A DNA stretch of 20,391 nucleotides from a virus: positions 1 to 20,391 of the IMG/VR virus record IMGVR_UViG_3300034521_000324; one strand, written 5' to 3'. The notes under the pieces were generated by a model, which saw only the letters and a program-made list of their open reading frames with translations, had not been told where the DNA came from and made no database searches. A program made the translations under genes and the position numbers. This document shows positions 2 to 7,621 of this stretch, in pieces (within the stretch, counting starts at the first letter, position 1; each line of letters starts with the position of its first letter).

Positions 2-253
2 ACCAGCGACATTAGACATGAAGTGTATGCGGTTATCAAACACTACCACCATCTGGCTCCATTCGTGCACAAGTACTGGGACAGAATTCTCCACTACCTC
101 AAGCCGCTTGACTTAGAAGCCATAGCCAACTGGATCGTGAATACTGCCAGAGAACTCGAAGGGAGGCGGTGTTATTCTTGTGATAATCTTAATTGCTTCC
201 TGGATCCTACTTTCCGTTGTTCTGGTTTCCGCCCGGAGGGGGGACACCAATGA
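2..253 (+). CDS. Partial early protein with Cys motif, 3' end only
   Basis: The frame is open from the left window edge to a TGA at 251-253, so 83 residues of the C-terminal part are visible and the true start lies outside; a GTG at 23 is possible but has no clear ribosome site. I do not recognise the family. The visible part is rich in His, Tyr and Trp and looks helical, then ends with four cysteines spaced C-x2-C-x4-C-x7-C (CYSCDNLNC followed by RCSGF), which could bind zinc. The stop overlaps the RNA polymerase start as ATGA, so the two are probably translationally coupled. Its place just before the RNA polymerase corresponds to the T7 early region, where small host-takeover proteins are encoded, but no function can be assigned. 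Confidence 0.6.
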   Translation, partial: TSDIRHEVYAVIKHYHHLAPFVHKYWDRILHYLKPLDLEAIANWIVNTARELEGRRCYSCDNLNCFLDPTFRCSGFRPEGGHQ

Positions 254-2505
254 TCGATAAAGAGCTCGAACTTGAAGGGCTTATGCTGCAGCGGGGCATT
301 GACAGAGATGAGAAAACCCACGAATACCGTGTGAAAGCCCTCATCGCCAATCTGTTCGCACCACGCATTCTCGGGCGTTTCATGAAATGGTTCCCGGGTA
401 TGCGTGGTGCCTACAAAGACGTAGCACCGCTGTTCGAGGGCCTGAAACAAAAGGACATTATGTCACTCATCGTGGTGGCACTGGAGACTTTGCTTTCGAA
501 GAACGGCCATGCCAGAACAGGCCTGATACGTGCACTGGGTCACGCAGTACTGCAACAGGTTAGTGTCCTCCAGATACCGCCGAAGACTTATCAGACGATA
601 TGGGAGTATGCACGTGTATATAAGCCACACATCGTCCACAGAATTCTCAGGGAAAACGCCAGGCGCTTTGCCCAGTTGCCCGATGTAGATGCGTTCCGTG
701 TAGGACTGCTGTTCTATGCACTGCTCAAAGAAGCCGGGCTCATCGAAGAAATGCATGGCAACGCACCACGTCGCAAAACCATTCAGGTGTTCCTGAAACC
801 ACAGCTGGAACAGGTACTACTGCGGCACCGCTGGGTTCGACCGCAATATTTACCCATGGTCGTACCTCCGCTTGACTGGAAGCTGTCCGAAGACGGTGAC
901 GTGCTTGAAGGCGGCTACTATACGCTCGCCGAACGGCTCATCCACGGCATACGCAAGGAGTTCAAGCCACAGCCGGGCTTATGGCTGGATGCAGTCAACT
1001 GTTTGCAGGCAGTACCCTATCGCATCAATACAGAGATGCTGGAGTTTTTCAGGGAGTGCCTCACACATCGCTGGCTTGTGACACCGCCGCCCGACTTCTA
1101 CAGAAAACCAGAAAAACCACAATCCGACGACCCAATGCTACGCAAGGAGTTTAAGTACCGCACGCGAGAGTATTATGCAAACGTGGCACGAAGCAAGTCG
1201 CTCTGGCTGTCCTACTTTTATACCAGAAACATCGCAGAAGATTATGCGGCATATGAGCGCATATACTTTCCCGCATACGCAGATTTCCGAGGCCGTGTTT
1301 ATTACAACGGTTCGTTCCTGAATCCTCAGGGCTGTGACTTTGCCAAGGCTTTGCTTGAGTTCGCAGAACCACGTCACATCACTACTGACGAAGGCCTGCG
1401 TGCTCTCAAAATCTACGTCGCAAGTCTTTATGGTTACGACAAGCACACATACACGGAGCGTTTGCAGTGGTTCGATGAACACGAAGACCTCGTGCTGGAA
1501 GTTGCCAGGCGCCCTGCGGCATACATCGACGTCATTGAGCAAGCCGATGAACCGTTTCGGTTTGTTGCGGCATGCAAGGCTTACGCCAAAGCGCTCGCAG
1601 GCGAACCTACGGGTTTCATAGTGCAGATTGACGGCTCCAACAACGGCACGCAGCATGTTTCGGCCATGCTTGGCGTCAACAACAAATACGTCAACATGAC
1701 CAGCGAAGAAAGATACTACGACTTTTACTCAGAGGTTGCCCGGCGTGTCACTGAACTCATTGCCGACGATACCGATATCAAGAACCAACGCGCAAAGTTG
1801 TTTTGGCTCGAGAAGGGCATTACCCGTGACCTTGTGAAGCGCAATTCGATGACATACGTTTACTCGGTGACGTTCCCGGGCATGGTTGACCAGAACCTGC
1901 ATTATATCATCAAAGAACACGGCCTACAGTTCTTCGAAGGCTACAATGTGTTCGAGATCGTCAACTACCTCACGACGAAGATCTATGAAGCCCTCAAAGA
2001 GCTGGGCTCCCTCGAATTCCTCCGCTGGCTACAGCAGATCGTCGCAAAGATCGACGCACCGCTGGAATGGATCACGCCGTCGGGCTTTGTGGTGTCGCAG
2101 GCTTACCGCCGCACCGTGGTTTACCAGATAGCGACGTTCTTTGGCAAACGCAAATTGTCTATGCGCTACCACGACTATACCGAGAAGCTGCACAAGAAGA
2201 AGATGAAGCTTGGAATTTCGCCGAACTTTGTACATTCGTACGACGCAGCGCATCTTGCGCTCATAGTCAACCGTTGCGACTTCCCGCTACTTGCCCAACA
2301 CGACAGCTTTGGCACGTACCCCGATCACATCCCAGAACTTCACAGAATTATCAGAGAAACCTTCGTGGAGATTTACTCAAAGCCCGTGCTGTTGCAACAC
2401 AAGACCGAGTGGGAACGCAGGTACGGAGTTAGGCTTCCCGATCCGCCCATTCAGGGCGAACTGAACTGTGAGGAAATTCTGAGAGCGCCATATTTCTTTT
2501 CGTGA
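250..2505 (+). CDS. T7-like single-subunit DNA-directed RNA polymerase
   Basis: This is a 751-residue phage RNA polymerase that would transcribe the middle and late phage genes from phage-specific promoters. The start at 250 is chosen over an in-frame upstream start at 193 because GGAGGGGGG (235-243) sits 6 bases before it. Visible motifs are PAYADFRGRVYYNG with NPQG; motif A IDGSNNGTQH with catalytic Asp461 (T7 D537); motif B RDLVKRNSMTYVYS with Lys530 and Tyr538 (T7 K631, Y639); NFVHSYDAAH; and motif C HDSFGT with His684 and Asp685 (T7 H811, D812). The C-terminus ends in aromatic residues (YFFS), like the T7 FAFA foot. It is about 130 residues shorter than T7 (883), with the loss split between the region before motif A and the palm/fingers insertions. 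The residue after Tyr538 is Ser, where T7 has Gly640. The specificity-loop region (around RYHDYTEKLHKKK) differs from T7, so its promoters will too. Confidence 0.97.
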   Translation: MIDKELELEGLMLQRGIDRDEKTHEYRVKALIANLFAPRILGRFMKWFPGMRGAYKDVAPLFEGLKQKDIMSLIVVALETLLSKNGHARTGLIRALGHAVLQQVSVLQIPPKTYQTIWEYARVYKPHIVHRILRENARRFAQLPDVDAFRVGLLFYALLKEAGLIEEMHGNAPRRKTIQVFLKPQLEQVLLRHRWVRPQYLPMVVPPLDWKLSEDGDVLEGGYYTLAERLIHGIRKEFKPQPGLWLDAVNCLQAVPYRINTEMLEFFRECLTHRWLVTPPPDFYRKPEKPQSDDPMLRKEFKYRTREYYANVARSKSLWLSYFYTRNIAEDYAAYERIYFPAYADFRGRVYYNGSFLNPQGCDFAKALLEFAEPRHITTDEGLRALKIYVASLYGYDKHTYTERLQWFDEHEDLVLEVARRPAAYIDVIEQADEPFRFVAACKAYAKALAGEPTGFIVQIDGSNNGTQHVSAMLGVNNKYVNMTSEERYYDFYSEVARRVTELIADDTDIKNQRAKLFWLEKGITRDLVKRNSMTYVYSVTFPGMVDQNLHYIIKEHGLQFFEGYNVFEIVNYLTTKIYEALKELGSLEFLRWLQQIVAKIDAPLEWITPSGFVVSQAYRRTVVYQIATFFGKRKLSMRYHDYTEKLHKKKMKLGISPNFVHSYDAAHLALIVNRCDFPLLAQHDSFGTYPDHIPELHRIIRETFVEIYSKPVLLQHKTEWERRYGVRLPDPPIQGELNCEEILRAPYFFS

Positions 2506-2519
2506 GGAGGGATAGCATG
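2503..2519 (+). repeat. 17-base stop/ribosome-site/start junction, copy 1
   Basis: TGAGGAGGGATAGCATG contains the RNA polymerase stop, the ribosome site and the SSB start. An identical 17-mer is at 5401-5417. Confidence 0.85.
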
Positions 2520-3080
2520 GCAAAGAAGGAAAGACCGTTCAGGCTGTTCACAACACCACCTCTTGAAACCAAATGGGTGTATCTTGCACAACCCAACGAC
2601 CACTTCGAGAACGGCATGTATCAGGTAGTGTTCAAACTGCACGAGGAAGACCATGCAAAAGTCATCGAGCAGCTCATAAACATCGAACAGGAGTTGCTCA
2701 ACGAGTTGGCTAAGGAGGTCCCCACCGCCAGGAAGGCCCGCATGAACAAGCAGCCTCTGTTGAGAGATGAGCTCATAGATGACGTGCCGACTGGTTATCT
2801 GCTTCTCAAGGCCAAATCCCAGTATGCGCCTGTGGTGTTCAACGCAAACAACCAAAAGATTGAACCACCAGAGGTTGTGCCCAACGGTTCTATTCTTCAG
2901 GGCCACATCAGACTTGCCGGCTACATTGCAGGCTACAACTACGGTGTCACGGCTTATCTCATTGCCGTTAGGATTATAGAACTGCGCCACAGCGTCGGCA
3001 ACATTGACCCGACATCGGTGTTCGGTGATCCGCTTGCTGCTGCTGACGACGACGCCGACGACGAAATGCCGCCGTTCTAA
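2517..3080 (+). CDS. Single-stranded DNA-binding protein, T7 gp2.5-like
   Basis: The protein has 187 residues, beginning MAKKERPFRLFTTPP. It would coat single-stranded DNA at the phage fork and recruit helicase and polymerase. Recognition rests on position (directly after the RNA polymerase, as gene 2.5 is in T7), a short basic N-terminus like T7 MAKKIF, a middle region that fits an OB fold (VPTGYLLLKAKSQY, PNGSILQGHIRLAGY, GVTAYLIAVRIIEL), and an acidic tail (DDDADDEMPPF) ending in Phe, the hallmark of gp2.5, whose final Phe contacts other replication proteins. It is shorter than T7 gp2.5 (232). The in-frame ATG-like start at 2502 is rejected because the ribosome site GAGGAGGG lies between it and 2517. 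The stop, ribosome site and start form a 17-base junction that recurs exactly before the dNMP kinase gene. Confidence 0.87.
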   Translation: MAKKERPFRLFTTPPLETKWVYLAQPNDHFENGMYQVVFKLHEEDHAKVIEQLINIEQELLNELAKEVPTARKARMNKQPLLRDELIDDVPTGYLLLKAKSQYAPVVFNANNQKIEPPEVVPNGSILQGHIRLAGYIAGYNYGVTAYLIAVRIIELRHSVGNIDPTSVFGDPLAAADDDADDEMPPF

Positions 3081-3092
3081 GGAGGTGTAAAC

Positions 3093-3440
3093 ATGGGCAA
3101 ATGGCAGAGACGCAAGGGTTACGAAGGGGAACACGAGGTCGAGCGCCTTCTTAGAAGGTTTGGACTCAATGCCAGGCGTGTGCCGCTCAGCGGCGGCACC
3201 GCCTTCCAGAAGGGCGATGTAGTGGCCTACGACGTCCGTGGCAAAGTCGGTGCCGTCTTCGAAGTCAAACGCCGCAAAGATGCCTACAAAGAATTGTACC
3301 GCTGGCTGGCAGAAGCAGATGGCGTGTTCTTCAGAAACGACAGGGCGCAATGGCTTGTCATCATGCCCTTCGATCGCTGGATCAAGCTCGTCAGAGGTGA
3401 ACTACGGCTGTTCGATGCTGATGTCGACGACGGCAAATGA
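3093..3440 (+). CDS. Hjc-like Holliday junction resolvase / PD-(D/E)XK nuclease
   Basis: The 115-residue protein has the archaeal Hjc pattern: GYEGEHEVERLL near the N-terminus with a catalytic Glu (Glu11 or Glu13), RRVPLSGG, then KGDVVA with Asp42, and FEVKRRK with Glu57 and Lys59, forming the E...D...ExK metal site of the PD-(D/E)XK fold. Such enzymes cut four-way DNA junctions. It occupies the gene 3 slot, where T7 has endonuclease I, also a junction resolvase, so it probably does the same debranching before packaging and may also degrade host DNA. A strong AAGGAGGTG site lies just before the ATG at 3093, and the spacing to the SSB gene is 12 bases. The family assignment is good; strict specificity for junctions is inferred. 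Confidence 0.85.
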   Translation: MGKWQRRKGYEGEHEVERLLRRFGLNARRVPLSGGTAFQKGDVVAYDVRGKVGAVFEVKRRKDAYKELYRWLAEADGVFFRNDRAQWLVIMPFDRWIKLVRGELRLFDADVDDGK

Positions 3441-3454
3441 AGGGAGGGGCGGTT

Positions 3455-3766
3455 ATGTTAGAAGGCCTGAGGCAAGAAGATGAACAGAAGCTGTGGAACG
3501 CAATCGGTACGCTTCAGAGGGGAGGCGCCAGGCTTATCACGCTTGAGTTCGGTGGCAAACCCTATAGGCATTCAGTCACGCTGCAACTTGCAGCAGAACG
3601 TGGTTCTGTGGCCGATGAGCTGACAGCTGCCGCAGTGCTTCGAGCAACGCTCAAGCATTCGTTGTTCAGGCCGAAGACGGACGAAGCGCTCTTTGACCTG
3701 TACATGCCCATCGACACGCTCTATGAATTCCTTGCAGACATGGTCATCTACCGTCTTTACGAGTGA
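3455..3766 (+). CDS. Hypothetical protein, 103 residues, in the T7 lysozyme position
   Basis: I do not recognise this protein. The start at 3455 (MLEGLRQEDEQ) follows GGGAGGGGCGG; an alternative ATG at 3437 overlaps the resolvase stop but lies upstream of that ribosome site. The sequence looks like a compact alpha/beta protein without cysteine, membrane segment or signal peptide: a helix (EDEQKLWNAIGTLQRGG), a strand-turn-strand (ARLITLEFGGKPYRHSVTL), then helices with SVADELTAAAVLRATL and YEFLADMVIYRLYE. It sits between the resolvase and the primase-helicase, where T7 encodes gp3.5 lysozyme, but has none of the amidase zinc ligands. A replication or transcription accessory role is possible from position only. 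Confidence 0.75.
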   Translation: MLEGLRQEDEQKLWNAIGTLQRGGARLITLEFGGKPYRHSVTLQLAAERGSVADELTAAAVLRATLKHSLFRPKTDEALFDLYMPIDTLYEFLADMVIYRLYE

Positions 3767-3777
3767 GGTGACAGAGC

Positions 3778-5403
3778 ATGGGCGAATTTCTGTACCACAC
3801 ATCGTGCCCAAGATGCGGCAGTAAGGACAACGTGGCCGTCTGGCGCAAGCCGGACGGCTCTTTGCAGGGCAAATGCTTCACACCGGGTTGCGATTATTTC
3901 TTCGTTGCCAAGCCCGGCGAAGATGCTCCACAGCCCACCGAACGCACCAAAAAGCACAGCCTCGAGAAGCTTTTGCCGTTCGAATACAAAGACCTGCCGA
4001 CACGTGGCATCGGCGCACCAATATGCCGTGCGTTTCTCTATGGCGTTACAAAACACAAAGGCGAATGGTTGCACGTTGCCAACTACCTCAACGCCCAGAA
4101 CGAGATCATTTGCCAAAAAATCCGCACACAGGACAAACGCTTCTGGATCGTGGGAGACACCCAACAGCCCCGCTTGATGTTCGGGCAACACCTCTGGCAT
4201 GGCGGTGGCAAAGTCCTCGTCATAGCTGAAGGCGAGATCGATGCCATGTCCATAGCTGAGGCAACACACATGTCAGTGCCTGTAGTTTCAGTCACAGACG
4301 GCGCCGGCTCAGCCGCCCGCAACATCAAGCAACACATAGACTGGATTGAGTCTTTCCAGAAGATCGTTTTAGCCTTCGACAACGACCAGGCAGGGAAGGC
4401 AGCCATTGATGAAGCCGTCAAACTGCTAACGCCAGGCAAGGTCTACGTTGTCAACTGGGGCAAGTACAAAGACGCCAACGAGGTTCTGCTGAACGAAGGT
4501 GGCGCCACCCTTGCCAAGTACATCGAGCGTGCCACACCATATACCCCAGAAGGCGTCGTCCTTGGTTCTGCCATCAGCTACGAAGACGTCGTGCTATCGC
4601 ACAACATAGAGAACTACGAGTTTCCCTATCCTGGGCTGAACTTGATGCTCAAGGGTCTTCGCAAAAAAGAATTAACGGTCATCACAGCTGGCACAGGCGT
4701 TGGAAAATCCACGTTCGTTCGTGAATTGGCCTACCACCTCGTCAAAGAACACAGCAAGCGTATAGGCTATGTAGCGCTCGAGGAAAGCATTGACCAGACC
4801 GTGCGTGGCTTTGTAGCGCTCCACAACAACATCCCACGTGGCGAGGTAGAACTGAAGCCCACACTTATCACGCCTGAGATGTTCGAACAAACCAAAGAGA
4901 AGATCCTGAACAACTGTGTGTTCTTCCAGCATTTCGGCTCGCTGGCTTCAGAAAACCTTATGACTACCCTGCGCTACCTCGCAGTTGGCCTCGATGTCGA
5001 CTTCATCATTATCGACCACATCTCCATCGTGGTCAGTGGCCTCGAAACCCACGACGAACGCAAGCTCATCGATATCCTAATGACTCGCTTGCGCCAGTTC
5101 GTGGAGAACACAGGGGTGGGCATGGTGGTGGTTTCGCACATCAGAAAGTCTCAGTCACAGGAGACGGCCGAAGAAGGGCGCAGGGTCACGCTCGATGACC
5201 TGCGAGGTTCTGGCAGTATCAAGCAACTTGCCGACAACGTCATCGCAATCGAAGTAGTAGACCCAACAACAAGACTTGTGCGTGTCCTCAAAAACCGACT
5301 GTTTGGCGTCACAGGTGAAGCCGATATTCTGCGCTACAACAGATCTACGGGACGTCTCGAGCCGTATGCCATAGCTGCCTTTGACAATCCTTCGGAATTT
5401 TGA
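3778..5403 (+). CDS. Bifunctional DNA primase-helicase, T7 gp4-like
   Basis: The 541-residue protein (T7 gp4 is 566) would unwind DNA as a ring on the lagging strand and make RNA primers. Domains in order: an N-terminal zinc ribbon with Cys10, Cys13, Cys33 and Cys38; a TOPRIM primase core with VIAEGEIDAMS (Glu151) and AFDNDQAG (Asp201, Asp203); and a RecA-type helicase with Walker A AGTGVGKST (Lys309), CALEES-like VALEES, Walker B DFIIIDHIS (Asp413), VVVSHIRKS and DLRGSGSIKQLADN. The start at 3778 follows a GAGGTGAC ribosome site, 11 bases after the previous stop. T7 makes a shorter helicase-only form from an internal start. No in-frame Met with a good ribosome site is visible just after the zinc domain, so only the full-length form is predicted. 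Confidence 0.95.
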   Translation: MGEFLYHTSCPRCGSKDNVAVWRKPDGSLQGKCFTPGCDYFFVAKPGEDAPQPTERTKKHSLEKLLPFEYKDLPTRGIGAPICRAFLYGVTKHKGEWLHVANYLNAQNEIICQKIRTQDKRFWIVGDTQQPRLMFGQHLWHGGGKVLVIAEGEIDAMSIAEATHMSVPVVSVTDGAGSAARNIKQHIDWIESFQKIVLAFDNDQAGKAAIDEAVKLLTPGKVYVVNWGKYKDANEVLLNEGGATLAKYIERATPYTPEGVVLGSAISYEDVVLSHNIENYEFPYPGLNLMLKGLRKKELTVITAGTGVGKSTFVRELAYHLVKEHSKRIGYVALEESIDQTVRGFVALHNNIPRGEVELKPTLITPEMFEQTKEKILNNCVFFQHFGSLASENLMTTLRYLAVGLDVDFIIIDHISIVVSGLETHDERKLIDILMTRLRQFVENTGVGMVVVSHIRKSQSQETAEEGRRVTLDDLRGSGSIKQLADNVIAIEVVDPTTRLVRVLKNRLFGVTGEADILRYNRSTGRLEPYAIAAFDNPSEF

Positions 5404-5417
5404 GGAGGGATAGCATG
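5401..5417 (+). repeat. 17-base stop/ribosome-site/start junction, copy 2
   Basis: TGAGGAGGGATAGCATG contains the primase-helicase stop, the ribosome site and the dNMP kinase start, and is identical to 2503-2519. The flanking bases differ on both sides, so the identity ends exactly at the junction. Confidence 0.85.
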
Positions 5418-5924
5418 CGTGTGATGATTTTTGGCAAACAGCGGGCAGGCAAAGACACGGCCGCCGATTACCTCTGCGAACAGTACGGCTTCACAAAGAT
5501 CAGGCTTGCAGATCCCGTCTACGACATCGCCAAGAAGTACTTTGGCATGCGCAAGAAAGACAGAGGGCTGCTCATAGCCATCTCCGAACATCTCAAACAG
5601 ATCGACCCTGACGTATGGGTCAAATATGCCCTCAAGCGTGCCAGACGCTATGACAGAGTTGTGATAAGTGACGTCAGATTCCCCAACGAGTATGCCCTGC
5701 TGAGGCAGGAAGGGTTCAAAGCCATATATATCGTAGCAAGTCAGGAAGCCCGAAGCAAGCGTGACGGTTATTCCCCTGAGTACGAAGATCATCCGTCGGA
5801 AAACTACTTTCAACAGTTTGCGGCAGACTATGTTATCGTGAACGAACTCAGGCTGGTCGATCTTTATCGCCAGCTCGACGTCGTCATGCGTCGTTGGTTG
5901 AGCGAAGAGGAGGCGAAAGCATGA
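5415..5924 (+). CDS. Deoxynucleoside monophosphate kinase
   Basis: The 169-residue protein begins MRVMIFGKQRAGKDTAADYL. The P-loop (GKQRAGKDT, Gly7 to Thr15, with Lys13) and the later VVISDVRFPNEYALL segment are typical of the phage dNMP kinase family that includes T4 gp1. The enzyme would phosphorylate dNMPs, released for example by breakdown of host DNA, to dNDPs for phage replication. The start at 5415 follows GAGGAGGG; the in-frame start at 5400 precedes that site. The gene lies between primase-helicase and DNA polymerase, and its stop overlaps the polymerase ATG as ATGA, so synthesis of kinase and polymerase is probably coupled. T7 itself has no such kinase here (its 1.7 kinase is of another type). 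Confidence 0.88.
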   Translation: MRVMIFGKQRAGKDTAADYLCEQYGFTKIRLADPVYDIAKKYFGMRKKDRGLLIAISEHLKQIDPDVWVKYALKRARRYDRVVISDVRFPNEYALLRQEGFKAIYIVASQEARSKRDGYSPEYEDHPSENYFQQFAADYVIVNELRLVDLYRQLDVVMRRWLSEEEAKA

Positions 5925-7621
5925 TCTACGTTGTGCCTGCGGGCGCTCTTGCGCCTTTTCGCTTGGTTGGCCTTGGCATCCAGCAAGAGAACGGCAAGCG
6001 CATTATCGCAAGCGGTGCAGAGATAGACGAAGCCATCCAAATGCTGGATGGTGCCGAGATAGTAATGCACAATGGCGTTCAGTGGCTGACAGCGATTCGG
6101 CGCCACTACAACGTCCAACCCAAGAGCCTTTATGACACAGCGTTATTTGCCGCTTTTGCATGGAATGACATTCGTAGCATTGACCAGAAACTGCGCAAGA
6201 AAGGGCGGGTGATGTCAAGCAAAGACCCGTGGAGCCTCGAAGCCTTTGCCATGCGCATCGGGCGCATCAATAGGCGTTTGCGGATAGGGTCGCCCGACCG
6301 CATGACTCCTGAGTGGAGAGAGTACCTTCTTGTTGCCCTCGACACACTGCCCGTTCTCTACGAGAAGTTGCGCTCCCACAATAGCTATTTTGCCAACATC
6401 GAACACGCCGTGAACCTCGAATACAACGTTGCCGAAATCATAGCTCGTTGCCGACTCAACGGCATAGGCTTTGACCATGCAAGGGCTTTGGACTATGCGT
6501 GGCAGATTCGAAGCGAGATGGACAAGCTTTGGGGGCTCATCCAGGAAGCCTTTCCACCGGTGGTCAAACAACTGTCCAACGGCGACACCATCACAATACC
6601 GATGAACCCCAAAAGTACGGCTTCCATCGCTGAGCACTTGATGGCTATGGGCTGGCTACCACGTCGCTTCAACGCTGCGGGCAGACCTGTGGTGAACGAT
6701 AGAACGCTCGAGGTTCTGGCTGAAGTCAACCCGAGTCTCAACTATGTGCGTCGCTATATCTATCTTTTGCGCATGCAGAGGCTTCTTGAGACAGGCAACG
6801 AAGCGTGGCTGAAGTACGGCGAGACCGGGCGCATTCATCCTGTCATCAACACGATGGGCGCCATCACTCATCGCATGACGCACGCAGCACCGAACCTTAC
6901 TCTTGTGCCATCGCCCGACGGCGACTGGGGTAGTAAACTGCGCTCGCTGTTTGTGGCCGGCGAGGGATACAAACTTGTCGGCTGTGACGCAAGCGCTTTG
7001 GAGTTGCGTTTGCTTGCGCATTATCTGGCTGAGTACGACGGCGGTGCATTCGCCAAAGCCTTCGAAGATGACATTCACACACGCAATGCAGAAGTTCTCG
7101 GCGTTGACCGTGACACAGCAAAGCGCTTTGTCTATGCGTGGATATATAGTGCTTCCGATGAAACACTGGCCGAGATCCTGAACAAGAACCTTGTGGAGAC
7201 CTCAGAACTGCGCAGAAAATTCGAAGCATCTCTGAAAGGCCTCGAGCAACTTATGAAGAGGTTACACAGGGAAGCAGAGCGTGGCTATGTTATCGCCCTC
7301 GACAAACGCAGGCTTGCCGTTCGCAAATCCTATGCACTCCTCAACGTACTGCTTCAGTCGGCTGGTGCCATCGCCATGAAGAAGGCACTCGTTATAGCCG
7401 ACGAAAGGCTGCGCAGCGTGGGCAAGCCCGGCGAAGACTGGAGGTGGGTTCACAACATACACGACGAGTGGCTGGTTGAAGCCAGAGAGGAGATCGCCAG
7501 CAAAGTCAAAGACATCCTCGTAGATAGCATTCGTGAAGTTGGCAAGGAACTGAACGTGCCACTGGATGCCAAGGCGTCTGTTGGCGACGACTGGACAGAA
7601 CTGAAGGAGGTGGGGGCATGA
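5921..7621 (+). CDS. Family A DNA polymerase, T7 gp5-like, exonuclease apparently degenerate
   Basis: This 566-residue replicative polymerase starts at 5921 after GAGGAGG; an in-frame GTG at 5894 lies upstream of that site. Polymerase motif A is GCDASALELR (Asp356), motif B is AKRFVYAWIYSAS (Lys401, Tyr405, Tyr409) and motif C is HDEWLVE (Asp515). GAITHRMTHAAPNL matches the T7 GAVTGRATHAFPNL segment. The N-terminal exonuclease domain can be aligned but looks inactive: T7 has Asp5 and Glu7 (SDIEAN), whereas this protein reads VVPAGA, and the T7 HNGHKYD Asp is Leu56 in HNGVQWL. Asp72 (YDT) and Asp141 remain. At 566 against 704 residues it is short, largely because the thumb insertion that binds thioredoxin in T7 is missing (IQEAFPPVV to MAMGW). 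Motif B lacks all three glycines found in T7. Both neighbouring genes overlap it by ATGA. Confidence 0.95.
   Translation: MIYVVPAGALAPFRLVGLGIQQENGKRIIASGAEIDEAIQMLDGAEIVMHNGVQWLTAIRRHYNVQPKSLYDTALFAAFAWNDIRSIDQKLRKKGRVMSSKDPWSLEAFAMRIGRINRRLRIGSPDRMTPEWREYLLVALDTLPVLYEKLRSHNSYFANIEHAVNLEYNVAEIIARCRLNGIGFDHARALDYAWQIRSEMDKLWGLIQEAFPPVVKQLSNGDTITIPMNPKSTASIAEHLMAMGWLPRRFNAAGRPVVNDRTLEVLAEVNPSLNYVRRYIYLLRMQRLLETGNEAWLKYGETGRIHPVINTMGAITHRMTHAAPNLTLVPSPDGDWGSKLRSLFVAGEGYKLVGCDASALELRLLAHYLAEYDGGAFAKAFEDDIHTRNAEVLGVDRDTAKRFVYAWIYSASDETLAEILNKNLVETSELRRKFEASLKGLEQLMKRLHREAERGYVIALDKRRLAVRKSYALLNVLLQSAGAIAMKKALVIADERLRSVGKPGEDWRWVHNIHDEWLVEAREEIASKVKDILVDSIREVGKELNVPLDAKASVGDDWTELKEVGA

Follow-up and report, generated by a model that had tools for sequence, protein, structure and literature searches.

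A putative Hjc-like Holliday-junction resolvase in the gene 3 slot of a T7-like phage

Which enzyme takes the part of T7 endonuclease I in a T7-like phage whose gene between SSB and primase encodes another nuclease? The question is raised by a 20,391-base virus record, analysed over its full length and referred to here as the window. The gene under study spans positions 3093 to 3440 on the plus strand, starts with ATG and encodes an Hjc-like PD-(D/E)XK nuclease of 115 amino acids that carries E13, D42, E57, K59 and an S33-G34 loop. A ribosome-binding stretch (3081–3092, plus strand; AAGGAGGTG), in which GGAGGTG is read, lies just 5' of the ATG. The ATG is located 12 bases past the SSB stop codon, and the nuclease stop codon overlaps the next ATG (ATGA, 3437–3440). 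Compared with its nearest relative, the nuclease of contig L016, codon positions 1, 2 and 3 differ at 37, 30 and 66 of 105 codons, respectively, which indicates that the gene has been kept as a protein. The open reading frame is confirmed as a real gene.

The neighbouring genes follow the T7 plan, which runs from RNA polymerase on to SSB, endonuclease I, lysozyme and primase. In the window, a T7-type single-subunit RNA polymerase, the marker of T7-like phages (193–2505, plus strand; PF00940, E = 4.7e-76; phrog_414, E = 1.6e-153), precedes a gp2.5-type SSB (2502–3080, plus strand; phrog_112, E = 1.3e-18), the nuclease, an open reading frame of 109 amino acids (3437–3766, plus strand) and a T7-type primase-helicase (3778–5403, plus strand; phrog_239, E = 3e-157; PF21268, PF03796). 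With the SSB as upstream and the primase-helicase as downstream border, as in T7, the nuclease occupies the T7 gene 3 slot, just as the first-pass annotation had proposed. The 109-residue frame sits where T7 carries its lysozyme gene (3.5) and has no assigned family (no Pfam family at E ≤ 1; best PHROG at E = 0.06); in phages HTVC011P, BB8 and RHEph21 an amidase or lysozyme is found at this place. A deoxynucleotide monophosphate kinase (5400–5924; PF21448, phrog_139) separates the primase from a family A polymerase of 575 amino acids (5894–7621). In this polymerase, the Pfam polymerase domain covers residues 237–569 only, while the PHROG profile phrog_17 aligns from residue 43 on; proofreading may have been lost, as Pfam lists no 3'-5' exonuclease family at E ≤ 1. 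An exonuclease and a portal are also encoded according to Pfam and PHROGs, and the capsid protein is about 30% identical to capsids of marine T7-like phages.

The occupant of the slot is neither endonuclease I nor RusA. The endonuclease I profiles PF05367 and phrog_945 give no match to it at E ≤ 1, while all five positive controls (the slot nucleases of T7, HTVC011P, P-SCSP1u, BB8 and P60) match. Local alignment against four endonuclease I sequences likewise remains at chance level (shuffle-based Z of -0.0 to 1.7), in agreement with the earlier claim that this is not T7 endonuclease I. RusA (PF05866) does not match at E ≤ 1 either, a profile that finds eight out of eight scanned RusA slot proteins. 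Neither the endonuclease I nor the RusA profiles match elsewhere in the 20,391 bases, although another resolvase could lie outside because the window is a virus record of unstated completeness. The first-pass annotation spoke of a non-homologous replacement. A different family does fill the slot, but T7 endonuclease I and Hjc are both PD-(D/E)XK-type nucleases, so that 'non-orthologous' is the better term; the RusA fold differs from the PD-(D/E)XK nuclease fold. The active site of T7 endonuclease I has been likened to that of archaeal Hjc (PMC8805305).

Profile searches place the nuclease among the Hjc-like proteins of phages. Its best PHROG is phrog_244 (E = 5.2e-15, the next best being at 1.1e-3), of which it is a member, and the first four of its six PHROG matches are families named after Holliday junction resolvases (phrog_244, 2002, 23036 and 6591). 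In Pfam, the Hjc family PF01870 is matched over residues 13–64 with 25.5 bits against a cut-off of 21.1, in line with the Hjc type named in the first-pass annotation. Pfam Hjc also exceeds its cut-off in the bacterium Thermotoga maritima and in three archaea among 14 control genomes, and is thus not purely archaeal. The only NCBIfam match, the archaeal Hjc equivalog NF040854, stays far below its cut-off (19.6 versus 70 bits). The Hjc-type catalytic pattern proposed earlier is real: E (motif I), D (motif II) and E-x-K (motif III) are present as E13, D42, E57 and K59, all conserved in 38 out of 38 aligned proteins, and the only other invariant columns are G9, S33 and G34. The sequence GYEGEHEVERLL, described as the start of the protein, is indeed present, but at residues 9–20 rather than at the very start. 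Motif I reads G-x3-E-x10-G-L, close to but not identical with the form given in PMC8805305, where the catalytic residues of Hjc_15-6 correspond to E13, D42, E57 and K59. Phages D6E, CBP1, CRP-823, Vibrio D254 and Pelagibacter Hodr match phrog_244 as well, and Thermus P23-45 does so more weakly. Judged by profiles and motifs, the window nuclease is a member of this broad phage Hjc-like family (phrog_244/PDDEXK_15).

The PHROGs name of phrog_244 is 'RusA-like Holliday junction resolvase'. None of its members scanned here matches Pfam RusA, some are matched by PDDEXK_15 or Hjc, and E-D-ExK is present in those that were aligned, so the 'RusA-like' label looks wrong. Records of T5-type phages put the same label on D14, a protein that was found with the protein of contig L355 (L355:3181–3537).

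The best Pfam match, however, is the generic PDDEXK_15 (29.6 bits, cut-off 27), a family without assigned junction activity that beats Hjc by 4 bits. A general family as best match had been regarded at the outset as an argument against a junction resolvase; this much was found, yet Hjc is above its cut-off too. VRR-NUC, the other family then considered, is not listed by Pfam at E ≤ 1 (a search run without a positive control). The protein might accordingly be a general PD-(D/E)XK nuclease that degrades branched DNA or host DNA without real junction specificity, for instance for nucleotide scavenging. T7 endonuclease I itself also breaks down host DNA, which counts in favour of such a role.

The predicted fold bears on this alternative. 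In an AlphaFold model built from 32 sequences (pLDDT 87.1, pTM 0.78), a first helix is followed by three strands, a second helix, two more strands and a final helix. When the model was compared with the PDB by Foldseek, ranks 1 to 11 were all A. fulgidus Hjc (best E = 8.8e-4). VIA-align scored A. fulgidus Hjc at Z 8.2, tied with the homing endonuclease I-Ssp6803I at 7.6, followed by Hjc_15-6 at 7.4; restriction-like and other nuclease folds reach Z 5–7, as a general nuclease would also allow. The T7 endonuclease I structure is not among the 50 rows listed in the PDB fold comparisons, which excludes nothing. Among predicted viral structures, the best match is a named Holliday junction resolvase (E = 4.2e-5, TM 0.75), and a protein named VRR-NUC follows at rank 47 (E = 0.033), behind many named Holliday junction resolvases. 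Taken together, the modelled fold points to Hjc and by itself leaves room for other nucleases. A 'Holliday junction resolvase' at rank 30 of the same comparison had suggested Synechococcus phage P60 as a further phage with an Hjc-like slot gene. This candidate was dropped: the slot gene of P60, gp12, is an endonuclease I, and the accession of the structure differs from that of gp12.

The tie with I-Ssp6803I, together with the HNH gene 3.8 that T7 carries after lysozyme and before primase, raises the possibility that the gene is a selfish nuclease, such as a free-standing homing endonuclease, that inserted itself behind the SSB gene and ahead of the primase. We consider this very improbable: the I-Ssp6803I alignment has just 10% identity, the nuclease gene overlaps tightly within an operon-like block, endonuclease I was not found displaced to another place in the window, and several relatives adjoin replication or recombination genes of other phages.

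The slot was also compared among other T7-like phages. SSB, endonuclease and primase occur in this order in T7, HTVC011P, P-SCSP1u, BB8 and RHEph21, with the SSB place in P-SCSP1u being taken by a hypothetical protein so positioned. For a broader survey, contigs were gathered with two primase queries, a portal query and an RNA polymerase query (the best 80 rows each, plus earlier loci), and the slot was typed with our own profiles for endonuclease I, RusA and Hjc-like proteins over the 2.6 kb before the primase. Removal of two pieces of the window itself (L001 and L261) from 208 loci with distinct primases left 206. In 185 of these, a resolvase-type family is present within that distance: endonuclease I in 163, RusA in 17 and an Hjc-like protein in five, whereas no type was recognised in seven and the upstream region was too short in 14. 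As these loci derive from the best 80 rows per scan and near-identical phages are counted apart, the counts are not natural frequencies. An SSB was seen in 154 out of 163 endonuclease I loci, 15 out of 17 RusA loci and all five Hjc-like loci; in the first survey round, 71 of the 73 loci with all three genes showed the order SSB, endonuclease I, primase. Nine of the 17 RusA and three of the five Hjc-like calls come from our own profiles alone. Eight RusA proteins and the slot protein of L138 were cross-checked in Pfam and PHROGs: all eight scanned RusA proteins pass Pfam RusA, and the L138 protein passes PDDEXK_15 and matches phrog_244 at 1.3e-15. The L355 protein matches the 'putative resolvase' D14 proteins of T5-type phages. 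The five Hjc-like carriers consist of the window and a separate four-member lineage.

Some loci show further arrangements. RusA occupies the slot in L103, L107, L108, L110, L117, L121, L146, L159 and nine more. In a clade of four T7-like contigs (L104, L105, L109 and L142; support 100), no resolvase was recognised in the stretch from SSB to primase, and in L104 and L109 the two open frames overlap. In L061, L062 and L063, a remote T7-type portal (20% identity, E about 1e-8) lies about 3.5 kb downstream of an Hjc-like gene.

That endonuclease I or RusA fills the slot in 180 of 206 surveyed loci, and that Hjc both ranks first among the PDB folds and exceeds its Pfam cut-off, speaks against a general nuclease without junction specificity. 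We regard that explanation as improbable, though less so than the other alternatives considered here. A junction resolvase is thus the preferred assignment of the window gene.

Since the slot types differ among loci, the slot appears to have been refilled by different enzyme families with the same presumed job. How often this happened was estimated on two trees, both from a quick search: a primase tree of 82 rows (including 58 of 159 endonuclease I, 15 of 17 RusA and four of seven 'none' rows) and an RNA polymerase tree of 45 out of 127 rows. The primase tree requires two changes for Hjc-like and seven for RusA, four of the latter forced by well-supported branches; with shuffled labels, these numbers are 4.9 and 14.0. 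The RNA polymerase tree gives two changes for Hjc-like and five for RusA (three forced). The 15 placed RusA contigs are spread over several distinct parts of the primase tree. Both the nearest primase row to the window (L101) and its nearest named isolate by primase (RHEph21, 43% identity) carry endonuclease I. The RNA polymerase data reject a grouping of the Hjc carriers in one clade (p-AU 0.005), in a test with four of the five carriers present and in which the window, of odd letter make-up, joins another long branch. This grouping is not rejected by the primase data (p-AU 0.307) or by the Hjc protein data (p-AU 0.401), where the group nevertheless appears in 0% of 200 bootstrap trees. These tests disagree; an Hjc-like gene probably entered the slot twice, and the repeated entry of RusA, likewise estimated from the trees, is firmer.

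The origin of the window nuclease was then considered in relation to its closest homologues. Among named phages, 20 records match at E ≤ 1, with a best identity of 40% (D6E), and comprise phages of Geobacillus, Caldibacillus, Parageobacillus, Thermus, Vibrio, Roseobacter and Pelagibacter, the deep-sea thermophilic D6E and one faecal contig. In IMG/VR, 116 relatives were confirmed and 80 of these kept. The nearest homologue (61% identity) is encoded by L016, a contig that also encodes an AAA ATPase and a D12-class DNA adenine methylase; in 7,242 of its 9,796 bases, no window protein besides the nuclease finds a match. Close-relative scans of viral contigs with the nuclease alone or the primase alone as query confirmed none. 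Among 84,980 prokaryote species, a pattern-limited scan confirmed five relatives, none archaeal and all Bacillota according to their titles (Bacillus, Paenactinomyces, Thermoactinomyces, Kroppenstedtia and Parageobacillus).

The first-pass annotation had named an archaeal gene pool as a possible source, and direct capture of an hjc gene from an archaeon or archaeal virus would fit the Pfam Hjc match (albeit shared with T. maritima) and the five of eight archaeal rows that align above Z 3.5. Nonetheless, all 42 phage and bacterial rows (L016 at Z 55.9, the other 41 at 9.5–33.7) outscore all eight archaeal rows (0.1–6.8), and the confirmed prokaryote relatives and the failed NF040854 match also disfavour this source. 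In the nuclease tree, the window pairs with L016 (95/85 in one tree, 100/99 in another) and the archaeal rows split off as a separate set (100/100), a separation favoured by the use of two query sets, as the archaeal rows (seven viruses and one plasmid) were selected for their similarity to S. solfataricus Hjc and most phage rows for their similarity to the window. A direct archaeal source is hence not supported by these comparisons, and we see very little chance of it. A phage source appears likelier, because the nearest rows are phages and Bacillota contigs and the archaeal rows stand apart.

The amino acid composition is partly consistent with a hot environment. The IVYWREL fraction follows growth temperature. 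In the window RNA polymerase it is 0.453, the highest of 54 T7-like polymerases (mean 0.387), and in the primase 0.413, the second highest of 102 (mean 0.380). Over all window proteins it amounts to 0.419 against 0.371–0.384 in three T7-like references, with 0.412 and 0.453 in pieces of Thermus G20c and D6E, respectively. The charged-minus-polar measure ranks the RNA polymerase fifth of 54 and the primase 58th of 102, thus agreeing with IVYWREL for the polymerase only; over all window proteins it is 4.7 versus 3.1, 4.1 and 10.5 in the T7-like references and lends no support to heat. With one of the two composition measures being thermophile-like, a thermophilic host or a thermophile phage pool is plausible. 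The thermophile virus pool suggested at first therefore retains the nearest named kin and IVYWREL on its side, but not clearly the second measure.

We estimate a probability of roughly 80% that the window gene is the phage's Holliday-junction resolvase, Hjc-like, doing the work of T7 endonuclease I and acquired from another phage as its substitute. The nuclease would be made together with the SSB and the primase from one operon-like block, as gene order and overlaps suggest. Presumably as a dimer, it would bind four-way or otherwise branched DNA arising from replication and from SSB-promoted annealing and recombination. By analogy with Hjc, E13, D42 and E57 would serve metal binding and catalysis, and K59 would touch the scissile phosphate. 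Metal-dependent paired nicks would then resolve the branches and, as in T7, render the concatemers packageable. In the lineage of the window, this nuclease would have replaced the endonuclease I that is still present in its nearest T7-like relatives, after its gene had come, probably in a hot environment, from a different phage and not directly from an archaeon.

More broadly, we lean, with less assurance, towards the view that the T7-like slot between SSB and primase is reserved for 'a resolvase' rather than for one gene. Selection would keep function, position and timing, while enzymes of at least three families (endonuclease I, RusA and Hjc-like) would repeatedly have taken each other's place, the Hjc-like type having come in at least two times and that of the window out of a pool of thermophile phages. 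T7 serves as a textbook case of replication and packaging, in which the product of gene 3 has been regarded as a constant component. Should resolvases of different families be acceptable in the slot, natural replacements instead of mutants may show what a T7-type replisome needs, the candidate needs being junction cleavage by itself, interaction with SSB or polymerase, and host-DNA breakdown. The window nuclease is, moreover, a small and possibly heat-stable putative junction resolvase. Replacement of one resolvase family by another has reportedly long been known in general, from Aravind and colleagues in 2000, whose study is named in PMC8805305. The endonuclease VII carried by phiKMV-type phages would be a further replacement. 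In the partly accessible literature, which covers few subscription journals, no report was found that places Hjc or RusA at the T7 gene 3 position.

The closest known systems are the phrog_244/PDDEXK_15 nucleases of Geobacillus and Caldibacillus phages, which have the same invariant residues (D6E being 40% identical), with the T5-type 'putative resolvase' D14 as a relative of the L355 form. Unlike the window, these phrog_244 phages show no T7-like gene set in the flanks, and the Pfam Hjc cut-off is passed by the window nuclease and L016, but not by D6E, CBP1 or CRP-823. T7 endonuclease I (gene 3, PF05367) shares the place between SSB and primase and the presumed function, but neither a profile match nor an alignment above chance; similarly, RusA (PF05866) of other T7-like phages has the same position and annotated function, while the window nuclease has no RusA match. 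Archaeal Hjc (A. fulgidus 2wcw, P. furiosus 1gef, S. solfataricus 1hh1) and Hje (1ob8) have the fold and catalytic motifs of the window nuclease, but the archaeal rows form a clade of their own, and the window nuclease falls under the NCBI equivalog cut-off. A thermophilic phage with an archaeal-like Hjc has been described before: Hjc_15-6 of Thermus phage Tth15-6 (PDB 7bgs, 7bnx) combines this fold with E-D-ExK and, in PMC8805305, is reported to cut junctions, with structure and activity published. It aligns with the window nuclease at Z 7.4 and 32% identity over 85 residues, but is longer (155 versus 115 amino acids), its direct sequence match is weak (E = 0.31), and its homologues in Thermus phages G20c and P23-45 lie in Oshimavirus genomes, which are not T7-like.
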